Assembly (NCBI GenBank): GCA_947471985.1
Contig: CANIZL010000003.1
Location: 64,747 to 117,758, forward strand
Direction of reading: 5' to 3'
From: Verrucomicrobiota bacterium
GTDB lineage: Bacteria; Verrucomicrobiota; Verrucomicrobiia; Limisphaerales; UBA9464
Length of the DNA: 53,012 nt
Part shown: positions 30,578 through 33,778 of the stretch, in pieces
Numbering within the stretch: position 1 is the stretch's first letter
Layout of the letters: each line of letters starts with the position of its first letter
Made by a program: the position numbers and the translations under genes
The notes under the pieces: model-generated
What the model saw: only the letters and a program-made list of their open reading frames with translations
Databases searched by the model: none
What the model was told of the DNA's origin: nothing

Positions 30578-33500
30578 ATGGATAGCCTGCTACTTCGCAC
30601 AAAACTCGACGCCTTCTATCGGGAGATCTGCGCCGTTATCATCGACAAACAGAATCCCGTCAGCGGGCTCCTGCCGGCCAGCACGGCGATCACGGTGCAC
30701 GGGAACTACCGCGATGCCTGGGTTCGGGACAATGTCTACAGCATTCTCGCCGTCTGGGGGCTGGGCTTGGCCTACCGCGGGCTCGATCACGACGATGGCC
30801 GGGGCCACGAACTGGAACAACGCACCGTTCATCTCATGCGGGGCCTCCTCCGCTCGATGATGGCCCAGGCCCACAAGGTGGAAATTTTCAAATCCTCGCG
30901 CCACCCGCGCGATGCCTTGCACGCGAAGTACGACACGGCCACCGGGGGTACCGTCGTGGGCGATTATGATTGGGGACATCTGCAGATCGATGCGACTTCG
31001 GTCTACCTGCTGACGTTGACGCAGATGATCAGTTCCGGGCTGAACATCATCTGGACCCTGGACGAGGTCGCGTTCATTCAGAATCTCGTTTACTACATCG
31101 AACGGGCCTACCGGACCCCGGACTACGGGATCTGGGAGCGCGGTGCGAAAACCAACAGCGGCAGTGTGGAACTCAATGCGAGTTCCATCGGCATGGCGCA
31201 GGCGGCCTTGGAAGCCTTGAGTGGCTTCAATCTCTTCGGCGCCCGGGGATCCCACTCGAGTGTCATCCACGTTTCGCCGGACAACATCGCCCAGTCGAAC
31301 ATCACGTTGAGTTCGATGTTGCCGCGCGAATCCAACAGCAAGGAAGTCGACGCCGCCTTGCTCAGTGTCATCGGTTACCCGGCGTTTGCCGTCTACGACG
31401 AGGCGCTTCGTGACCGGACCCGGGCCAAGATCCTCTCCACGCTCGAGGGACCGTACGGACTGAAACGGTTTCTCCGGGACGGCCACCAAACGGTTCTCGA
31501 AGACGAAGGGCGTCTGCACTACGAACAGGAGGAACTGCAACGCTTTGAAGACATTGAAAGCGAATGGCCGCTCTTCTTTGTCTATCTCTACCTCGACGGA
31601 ATCTTCCGCGGCGATGACGCCGCCGCGGCCCTTTACGAAAGCAAGCTGGAGGCGCTGACGGTCGAACAAAACGGACAAAAACTCCTCCCCGAACTTTACT
31701 ATGTTCCAAGGGAATTCATCGCGCAGGAAAAGGCGCGGCCGGGCAGCGCGAGACGACTGCCGAATGCCAATGTGCCGCTCGTCTGGGCGCAGTCGCTCTA
31801 TCTGCTCGGGCGGATGATCCGTGCGGGCGTTCTGCGCCGCGGGGACATCGATCCCCTCGGGCGTCGCCGCCACAAGCGCCCGCAGAATCCGGTCGTACAG
31901 ATCCTCTTCCTTGCCGAGGACGAAGCACTGCAGCGTGAGCTGGCTGCGCAGGGGGTGCTGACCGAAACCCTGAAAGACATCGAGCCCGTGGTCGCCTTCC
32001 TGCCGGAGGAAATCGCGCTCGCGCACGGGGCCATTGGAACCAGTGCGCGACTCGGCTTGAGCGGACGCAGCGCGCGCGCCTTGAAGAGTCTCACCACGAG
32101 CCGCTTCTATCGGCTCGACGGCGTCACCGTGGTGCCGTTGGCGTCGTTCTTCCTCGAGCGGGATTTCTTTCTCGCCTACGACATCAATTTCCTGACGCGG
32201 CGATTTGAAGGCGAACTGGCGTACCTGCACCGCAACTGGTCGGAGAAGGGGCGGCCGACGGTGACGGTGCTGCTGACGCATTCGCTGCTGAAAGGCGAAC
32301 GCAGCGCCTTCTTCTCGCTGACCCGCCGGATCGTCGAAGGGGAAATCTGTGGCATTCCAGTGCGGCAGGGCCGCGTGGTCGAGCTGCTCCCCACGGGATC
32401 TTTTGCCCGCCTCGATGGCACCCGGTGTCGCCCGGCTGCTTCGTCGTCCGTTCAGGCGCTGCTCAAACAGCCATCCCACCTTCCCACGCCCGGCAAATCC
32501 AAGCCGTTGAGCGCCCAAGCCCTGCGGGAAATCGAAGGCGCCGAAGAGCATGAGCTTTACGCCACCCTCACGACGACGGATAACCTCTACGAGCAACTGG
32601 AAATCATCGCGGCCCTGCTACCGAAGCGGGGCCTCAACGACAAGTTTGCCCTGCCCACCGGCGAGACCTCCCTCAGGGAATTGTTGCTCGAGATCTACGA
32701 AAACGCCGGCAGCATCCGGCTCTGGGCGGTGATTCGACGCGCCGCGGGCTTGCTGCATTTGGTCGATGGCGACACAGCCCTCTCCGTGGCGGCGCTGTTG
32801 GTGGCCCGGAAATCTATTCAAGTGGGTCGCGCCTACAGCGATGCCTCGCTGATCATGCATCCCATCGCGGACCATGAACTCATGGAGAAAATCCAGGCGT
32901 TCTGTCGGGATGAACGGGATCAGGTGATCACCCAGGAACTGTTGCTCTACCTCGGGCTCCTCATTCGCGCCCGGCCGGAGCTTTTCGAAGCGCTCCTCAC
33001 CGTCCGCGTTTCGCACTTGAGCGCCTTGCTGACGAGCCAGTTGGCTCGCGAACAGAGCCTGGCGCTGGATGAAGCCTATGAGTGTCTGTTGCAGCTGCCG
33101 CCTTCGGAGATCCAACGGCGATTGGAGGCCGGTCTTTCGCGGTACGCGTTGGATCACGCGCTGCCGCAAAAGCTTGAGCATTTGCGCTCCGAGGTGGGGA
33201 ATACCGCGCTGGCCTGGCGGGAGGATCTGGGACTCTCCGCCCTGCAGGAGCCTCCGGAAGGGTGGCTGGCCTTCCGCCAATACGCGGGCGTCATTGATCG
33301 TCGACCGGAGCATTTCTACAAGAACACCTTCGCGTTGTTTCGCCACGCAACCGGCATCGTCATTGGCGATCGCATGGACCGCCGCAATCGGATCGAAAGC
33401 GGCCTGGTGCTCAGTGATATGACCCCGGGAGAGCCCGCTTTTGCCCACCTCCTCGAGCACTTGCTGAACAAGGCCCAGGCGCCCGAATATCGGCAACTCT

Positions 33501-33778
33501 ACATCGAAGCCCTCCATGTTTTGTCGAGCTTCTTCCGACAGAACCCGCAATTGAAGATTCGGGACGCCTTGTGCCTGGATTCGATGATTGGCCATGCGGT
33601 GCGCCTGAATTATTTGGAAGGGCAACCCGAACACGAAGCGTGCTACGACGAGCACAAGGGCAACGCCTGGCGAGGCTTTTATGAGGCGTCGCCGCAACAG
33701 ACTTCGACGGCATTTGTTCAAGCCCTGCGGTACCTCCTTTCGCCGGGGGATTTGGCCCAGTCTCCAGTCGTGCAGTGA
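30578..33778 (+). CDS. Phosphorylase kinase alpha/beta subunit-like GH15-family protein
   Basis: The start is the ATG at 30578 ([18 protein letters not shown]) with AGGTGGG upstream. The product has 1066 residues. The first 450 or so form a GH15-type alpha/alpha-barrel. Its text is very close to the regulatory alpha subunit of animal phosphorylase kinase: [88 protein letters not shown] and [15 protein letters not shown] (about 185) and ESEWP (about 327) mark the glutamates of the GH15 active site. The remaining 600 residues correspond to the long C-terminal part of the eukaryotic subunit. Bacterial homologues are known but uncharacterised. No kinase catalytic subunit or glycogen gene is nearby. 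Confidence 0.85.
   Translation: [1066 protein letters not shown]

Follow-up and report, generated by a model that had tools for sequence, protein, structure and literature searches.

A full-length bacterial homologue of the phosphorylase kinase alpha and beta subunits with a conserved GH15-type active site in a Verrucomicrobiota genome

The locus and its likeness to phosphorylase kinase subunits

A stretch of 53,012 nucleotides from a Verrucomicrobiota bacterium (assembly GCA_947471985.1, contig CANIZL010000003.1, positions 64,747 to 117,758 of the forward strand), here called the window, carries an unbroken gene for a protein that is homologous to the alpha and beta subunits of animal phosphorylase kinase (PhK). 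The coding sequence runs on the forward strand from 30578 to 33778 and encodes 1066 amino acids, with a TGA stop at 33776–33778. The open reading frame (ORF) was listed with a GTG start at 30551 (1075 amino acids), but the ATG at 30578 fits better as the start, because an ATG is aligned with residue 1 in the relatives L002, L003 and L004 and a possible ribosome-binding site, AGGTGGG, can be read just upstream (30563–30569, forward strand).

Domain 1, a GH15-like (alpha/alpha)6 barrel delimited by Pfam, the structural model and conservation, comprises residues 1–430 (30578–31867). Within it lie the loop of residues 41–51 (30698–30730) with His41, Gly42 and Tyr44, followed by Trp48, Arg50 and Asp51, and the motif WGHLQ of residues 132–136 (30971–30985), which hhalign set against W120-G-R-P-Q of Aspergillus glucoamylase with a weak score. 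The active-site glutamates of GH15, already noticed in a sequence-only reading of this DNA, are E187 and E372. Glu187 (codon 31136–31138, WERG motif) is the predicted general acid and equals E185 of PHKA in a cryo-EM paper from 2024 (PMC10978961), and Glu372 (codon 31691–31693, LPEL motif) is the predicted general base, corresponding to E371 in PHKA and to a lysine in PHKB. The region that follows (31868–33046, boundaries approximate) corresponds to the middle domains of PhK alpha/beta and leads to the KPBB_C domain assigned by Pfam (residues 824–1056, 33047–33745); the domain names D1–D5 are those given for PhK alpha/beta in PMC10978961. The protein ends in SPVVQ and is devoid of the CaaX farnesylation motif of PhK subunits.

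Likeness to the animal alpha subunit, reaching past the GH15 domain, had been proposed by the same reading from two blocks of protein sequence, both of which are present. In Pfam, the protein matched PF00723 (GH15) at E 1.7e-79 and PF19292 (KPBB_C, 'Phosphorylase b kinase C-terminal domain') at E 2.1e-77, with 260 bits against a cut-off of 27. A phmmer search of the PDB sequences (E up to 1) returned two distinct sequences only, PHKA1 (6.5e-191) and PHKB (2.6e-171), and the matched stretches cover most of the chain, up to residue 984 and 1039, respectively. With a profile built on the window protein plus 34 relatives, PHKA1 and PHKB were again the sole PDB matches at E up to 0.001, and the alignment extended to position 995 (PHKA1) and 1064 (PHKB) of 1070. 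In domain 1, the window protein is 55% identical to PHKA1 and 45% to PHKB. The likeness is thus far above chance and goes well beyond generic GH15 motifs, to which the alignments could have proved confined. Animal PhK alpha and beta are homologues of this bacterial family.

An AlphaFold2 model built from an alignment of the window protein and 34 relatives reached a mean predicted local distance difference test score (pLDDT) of 83.8 and a predicted template modelling score of 0.79, with pLDDT below 50 at residues 185–194 and 301–321 and in the last ten residues. In Foldseek, PhK alpha and beta ranked at the top for this model. VIA-align gave Z 53.9 with a root-mean-square deviation of 2.3 Å for 8jfk_A (PHKA), with 796 residues aligned over model residues 1–862; the match to 8jfl_A extended to residue 1057 (856 aligned), but at a deviation of 9.3, which means that the last domain does not sit as it does in PHKA. 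GH15 enzymes came next after PhK, at Z 23–32 over about 340 residues, among them isomaltose glucohydrolase (5z3b, Z 32.5), glucoamylase (1lf6, Z 30.2) and dextran dextrinase (9ju0, Z 28.1).

PHKA1 (PDB 8jfk, 8z5r) has the same domain order but is longer (1223 versus 1066 amino acids), the bacterial stretch being much shorter where PHKA has residues 616–765; it carries a C-terminal CaaX motif, which is reported for PHKB as well (PMC10978961), whereas the bacterial protein has neither this motif nor a known gamma or delta partner. PHKB is homologous to the window protein over its full length. The GH15 enzymes (isomaltose glucohydrolase 5z3a, glucoamylase 1lf6 and 3eqa, glucodextranase 1ug9 and dextran dextrinase 9ju0) have the same (alpha/alpha)6 barrel and have two glutamates and a Tyr-Trp-Arg-Asp loop in common with it, but their identity is 13–20% in the rows listed and they are without D2–D5. 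Among bacteria, the main cyanobacterial KPBB_C proteins are about 50% identical over the full length and L002–L004 56–60%. Cyanobacterial and other bacterial KPBB_C proteins have the same catalytic set and do not differ in kind, except that some are encoded with a glucokinase in an operon and the window copy is not.

The family is already known to Pfam through the KPBB_C model. In the open-licence literature, no account of a full-length bacterial PhK alpha/beta-like protein was found. The short Escherichia coli protein PkgA, encoded at one end of the ETT2 cluster, was named for phosphorylase kinase and glucoamylase, with citation to Pallen 2003 (PMC3977695, PMC2808357). Its gene of 1059 bases, compared by description only, is about one third as long as the window gene, and PkgA therefore cannot hold the whole of D2–D5 as well. 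For Synechococcus, another report speaks of a 'glycogen phosphorylase kinase' in the abstract but of glgP in the results (PMC6716455), and a further one refers to the rabbit muscle enzyme (PMC8116748).

Conservation of the active site

Conservation was assessed in 45 bacterial sequences, namely the window protein, 10 named loci and 34 further loci, of which 20 are cyanobacterial and represent 19 of the 72 matching genomes of cyanobacteria. The set includes near-copies (L097/L098 and L071/L076) and a pair of genes from a single genome (L068 and L069); the decayed L006 and the fragments L005, L012 and L102 were left out. Invariant positions are concentrated in domain 1 (105 of 430, versus 14 of 626 in residues 431–1056), and 69 of these 105 fall in six catalytic-face loops, which were delimited from the model helices and comprise 187 of 440 positions. 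Y44, W48, R50, D51, W132, E187, R297 and E372 are invariant in all 45 sequences, and H41, H303, Q304, N396 and N398 are invariants specific to the family.

In known GH15 enzymes, a tyrosine hydrogen-bonds the base (Tyr326 in glucodextranase, Tyr337 in Thermoanaerobacterium glucoamylase and Tyr48 in isomaltose glucohydrolase), and a conserved aspartate follows (Asp333, Asp344 and Asp56, respectively), as described in PMC12446779. Y44 stands seven residues before D51, the same spacing as in Tyr337/Asp344 and Tyr326/Asp333, while the isomaltose glucohydrolase pair is spaced by eight. The sequence pattern thus agrees with Y44 as the tyrosine predicted to position the base and with R50-D51 as the putative Arg-Asp of subsite −1.

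Of the 105 invariant domain-1 residues, PHKA1 has kept 94, both catalytic glutamates included, and PHKB 76. PHKA1 differs at T36, H41, G42, Y44, E251, A260, H303, Q304, N396, N398 and L401, and PHKA is without the loop that holds His41, Gly42 and Tyr44. Ten of these 11 differences lie on the catalytic face, where 7.2 would be expected from 69/105; this apparent bias is a lean and no proof. A tyrosine is found two residues further upstream in the shortened PHKA1 loop and might partly stand in for Y44. In PHKB, the base E372 is changed to lysine, R50 to glutamine, W48 to lysine and W132 to tyrosine; His41 and Tyr44 are lacking or changed, but a glycine is aligned at position 42. As human PHKA keeps both glutamates and PhK nevertheless showed no glucoamylase activity, the glutamates alone prove nothing. 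Comparison of the loops suggests that loss of the Tyr44 loop may be the reason why PHKA is inactive despite both glutamates.

Distribution, gene neighbourhoods and glycogen enzymes

In the genome of the window, one KPBB_C match and one GH15 match were found, both in the same gene. The Synechococcus elongatus genome, included as a control, was also positive. KPBB_C was present in 4 of 337 genomes of the same phylum (own genome counted), and in 72 of 292 genomes of the cyanobacterial phylum searched around the Acaryochloris locus (71 over the family cut-off). For the class of the Aliiglaciecola locus the count was 11 of 321 genomes; for the phyla of the Bacteroidia and Sulfurimonas loci it was 2 of 296, both of them carriers recognised before, and 2 of 200, respectively. 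As every search was built around a genome known to carry the family, each count contains at least one positive by design. Rhodothermia, Polyangiaceae and Deinococcales contribute further named loci. Cyanobacteria thus have the family frequently, and it is rare elsewhere. A mobile origin was considered and dropped, as tblastn found no match to the gene in plasmid and phage collections.

The neighbouring genes of 45 loci were clustered. The ORF heuristic failed to pick the target gene of L093 and L099, where antisense frames are longer, so that these two are covered by tblastn only. The recurrent partner whose metabolic connection is evident was glucokinase; response-regulator-like genes, a common gene type, made up a still larger cluster with members in 12 loci. 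Among the 24 non-cyanobacterial loci that extend for at least 400 bp beyond the gene, tblastn with Glk-type queries only placed a glucokinase gene directly downstream on the same strand in seven (L010, L091, L094, L095, L097, L098 and L101). The stop of the PhK-like gene and the glucokinase start overlap in ATGA in L091, L094 and L101; in L097 and L098, glucokinase starts with an ATG placed 14 bases ahead of that stop; L010 has one base between TAA and the glucokinase ATG (or an earlier start), and L095 a gap of about 50 bases. In L013 and L100, a glucokinase is found within 4 kb but not directly downstream. Pfam confirmed the glucokinases of L010 and L095 (both PF02685), L013 and L100, and those of L091, L094, L097, L098 and L101 rest on tblastn, with L094 cut by the contig end. 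Mapped on the tree, the downstream glucokinase required four changes among 41 rows, seven of them positive.

A separate arrangement was seen in L013 (Pseudomaricurvus, 4383–15070), in which the PhK-like gene lies between a dehydratase-glucokinase cluster of the edd-glk type and an alpha-amylase-family gene; a probable eda and a LacI-like regulator were read by eye in this cluster.

Protein kinases were looked for as well. The sequence-only reading had seen no kinase, calmodulin or glycogen enzyme nearby, and a Pfam scan of 29 further ORFs, a part of those in the window, bears this out: no ordinary protein kinase, gamma kinase or calmodulin was among them (calmodulin was not searched genome-wide). 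In L088, L089 and L090, from one genus of the same phylum, a Ser/Thr kinase gene lies 77–195 bp upstream on the same strand (13252–14193, 13397–14338 and 13615–14556, respectively, all on the minus strand), and L091 has a divergent kinase-AAA-TPR protein. The idea of a kinase operon, a bacterial PhK pair, was set aside, as these three loci belong to a single genus whose genomes hold 98, 105 and 105 kinase-domain matches. The genome of the window has 22.

Co-occurrence with glycogen metabolism was examined in 80 genomes (26 carriers and 54 non-carriers) with glycogen synthase PF08323 and phosphorylase PF00343. Non-carriers were sampled roughly evenly by genome number from the ranges searched around the Aliiglaciecola and Sulfurimonas loci, and membership was read from the numbering; the carriers G347 and G340 have the gene only in pieces at contig ends. 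A strong synthase match was defined as E < 1e-30, a threshold set once the list had been inspected, and the statistics ignore relatedness. Any synthase-family match was found in all 26 carriers. In Gammaproteobacteria, strong matches were present in 14 of 14 carriers versus 21 of 40 non-carriers (Fisher p 0.0009), and in Campylobacterota in three of four versus two of 14 (p 0.044); among the other carriers, they were found in one of four in the phylum of the window and in three of four of the rest. Any phosphorylase match was found in 24 of 26 carriers (13 of 14 Gammaproteobacteria), as compared to 23 of 40 gammaproteobacterial non-carriers (p 0.02) and two of 14 non-carriers in Campylobacterota. 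The genome of the window itself has a glycogen synthase match at E 3.8e-75 and phosphorylase-family matches in two open frames. Carriers thus tend to have glycogen synthase.

Proposed function and descent

The protein is probably an active GH15-type alpha-glucosidase that takes part in the breakdown of storage glucan and passes glucose to glucokinase. It would be a cytosolic exo-alpha-glucosidase fused to the C-terminal scaffold D2–D5 known from PhK alpha/beta. The pocket of domain 1 would hold the non-reducing-end glucose of a short alpha-glucan such as maltodextrin or a glycogen limit dextrin, Glu187 would protonate the glycosidic oxygen, and Glu372, positioned by Tyr44, would activate the water for the release of glucose, which glucokinase would then phosphorylate. 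The C-terminal domains might build an oligomer or bind glucan. A cytosolic location is likely in so far as no signal peptide is visible to the eye, and a preference for alpha-1,4 linkages is suggested by W132 and by the lack of a Trp between E372 and W403 in 45 of 45 sequences, although the link to the glucoamylase residues is weak. Animal PhK alpha and beta would be relatives that lost catalysis and became regulators of a kinase.

Several observations weigh against this assignment. Two stretches of the catalytic face are the poorly modelled residues 185–194 and 301–321, and the barrel fold is common to other sugar-enzyme families, with invertases and alpha-mannosidases at Z 22–25. The residue match to Aspergillus glucoamylase was weak in hhalign (probability 3.7%). 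In inverting GH15 enzymes, Gln is described to follow the base (PMC12446779), but the residue at this position is Leu in 41, Val in three and Ile in one of the 45 bacterial sequences. With maltose, isomaltose or glycogen as the substrate, PhK itself is reported to have shown no glucoamylase activity (PMC10978961). At the level of the genomes, 17 of the 24 non-cyanobacterial loci have no glucokinase directly downstream, and with the same Glk-type queries tblastn found none in the 20-kb stretches of 20 cyanobacterial loci and none within the window. The scanned window ORFs include no glycogen enzyme or sugar-storage neighbour. The link to synthase weakens to p 0.017 when only non-carriers of at least 2.4 Mb are counted (18 of 27), and the synthase matches of the carriers G194, G211 and G317 of the same phylum are weak (E 6.7e-8 to 4.6e-7). 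Finally, the closest relative, L006 from a Verrucomicrobiales metagenome-assembled genome (6505–8721, 83% identical), has no match to residues 1–175, 194–280 and 328–422 as assembled and has kept a long open frame over the C-terminal part; as most of domain 1 is lost in this assembly, the gene appears to be dispensable in that lineage.

The sequence-only reading had left the choice between an active glucoamylase-like enzyme and a regulator, and both alternatives stand, with the comparative evidence now leaning to the enzyme because the active-site face is extremely conserved, the bacterial proteins have the Tyr44 loop that is absent from PHKA, and some relatives have glucokinase operons. As a non-catalytic sugar-sensing regulator, the protein would bind glucan or oligosaccharide in domain 1 and signal through its C-terminal domains to a partner, e.g., a Ser/Thr kinase. 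PhK alpha and beta are regulators in animals, and acarbose, an inhibitor of glucoamylase, is reported to bind PhK and to raise its kinase activity (PMC10978961); the upstream kinase genes of L088–L090, the divergent kinase-AAA-TPR protein of L091 and the C-terminal part retained in L006 also fit such a role. A kinase neighbour is unsurprising in genomes as rich in kinases as those of L088–L090, however, and among the neighbour clusters printed a recurrent kinase occurs only in L088–L091, with no ordinary kinase near the window gene among the ORFs scanned. Pure sensors are moreover free to lose their catalytic residues, as PHKB has done, and all 45 bacterial sequences have kept them. A silent regulator is therefore considered unlikely, and the active enzyme is favoured over it.

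Two other enzymatic roles have to be weighed. A retaining or mixed transglucosylase would transfer glucosyl units between alpha-glucans with the same two glutamates, as dextran dextrinase does, which is among the nearest folds; this GH15 homologue is also described to be without Gln after the base, with Ser there (PMC12446779), in line with the Leu of the bacterial family. Against this, the glucokinase coupling in seven of 24 loci points to free glucose, and position 406 is Ser in 44 of 45 sequences and not the Glu of dextran dextrinase, if the by-eye alignment is right, which makes transglucosylation quite improbable. Alternatively, a GH15-type enzyme might act on a different kind of molecule, for instance a small glucoside (compatible solute, isomaltose or trehalose), with the glycogen link being incidental. 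The invariants H41, H303, Q304, N396 and N398 could recognise a special aglycone, isomaltose glucohydrolase is the nearest enzyme fold, and the best NCBIfam match was an archaeal trehalase, albeit far under its cut-off (21 bits versus 820). This possibility is also held to be unlikely, in view of the invariant Trp132, which aligns with Trp120 of Aspergillus glucoamylase in the weak alignment, the lack of a Trp between Glu372 and Trp403, where isomaltose glucohydrolase has Trp350, and the co-occurrence with glycogen synthase.

The descent of the gene was analysed with an unrooted maximum-likelihood tree of 47 rows that includes two eukaryotic sequences, human PHKA1 and PHKB, on long branches; the long-branched L014 was dropped from the tree used for approximately unbiased (AU) tests and for mapping of the glucokinase trait. 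The window protein grouped with Paraglaciecola and Aliiglaciecola (100), then with Rhodothermia and Bacteroidia (100) and with Deinococcales (96), apart from the other carriers of its own phylum. Recent vertical inheritance in the phylum was rejected, as grouping with G194, G211 and G317 gave an AU p of 2e-62. Horizontal transfer of the window gene fits these results, with paralogy and differential loss as an alternative. PHKA1 and PHKB formed one side of a branch amid bacterial rows with a Shimodaira–Hasegawa-like approximate likelihood ratio test support of 98. A grouping of the human pair with the main cyanobacteria was not seen in the tree, yet the constraint was not rejected (p 0.648). 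In domain 1, PHKA1 is 57–62% identical to 17 main cyanobacterial rows, 45–49% to four rows of the other cyanobacterial group and 47% to PHKB. As the tree has no root and its eukaryotic part consists of two long human branches, it gives no direction of descent.

A tentative scenario, which we rate clearly below an even chance, regards the bacterial family as the living enzymatic stock of the PhK regulatory subunits, i.e., a glucosidase with a D2–D5 scaffold that works with glucokinase on storage glucan. An early ancestor of animals or other eukaryotes might have acquired one bacterial gene, possibly of the cyanobacterial type, which was then duplicated; deletion of the Tyr44 loop would have disabled the alpha pocket and loss of the base the beta pocket, with the pocket retained as a sugar-responsive switch for a kinase. 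If true, this would account for a glucoamylase domain in PhK that looks intact but is silent. The physiological significance of the PhK glucoamylase-like domains 'still requires further investigation', as the cryo-EM paper puts it (PMC10978961). PhK has two such domains without detected activity, and bacterial relatives with an unbroken pocket make the question testable at the bench, together with a short list of residues lost by PhK alpha. If the bacterial protein is active, it would add a glucose-releasing route of glycogen breakdown to many cyanobacteria and some other bacteria, and it may show what the animal PhK regulator evolved from.

The neighbours of the gene in the window include an apiosidase-like gene, a sugar ATP-binding cassette (ABC) cluster and a sigma factor with a ChrR-like partner. 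The sole kinase-named hit was a CotH domain in a protein of 2159 amino acids that ends about 12 kb upstream (12164–18643, forward strand) and also carries Lamin Tail Domain repeats and an Ig domain, the CotH domain being kinase-like. A sigma-70-family factor followed by the ChrR-like cupin protein (27191–28929, forward strand) is divergent from a DUF4331/TPR/HupE-UreJ_2 cluster (22893–27245, minus strand). Just upstream of the PhK-like gene, at 29268–29958 (forward strand), a possible toxin-antitoxin pair consists of an ORF of 177 amino acids and an ORF of about 50 read by eye; Pfam gave no family for the former, whose sequence pattern resembles that of PIN-domain proteins. Downstream, a sugar-catabolism-like cluster (39158–49387, forward strand) comprises a Gfo/Idh/MocA oxidoreductase, a PGDH_C protein, a xylose-isomerase-like TIM barrel, a periplasmic sugar-binding protein, an ABC ATPase, a permease and an AraC regulator.

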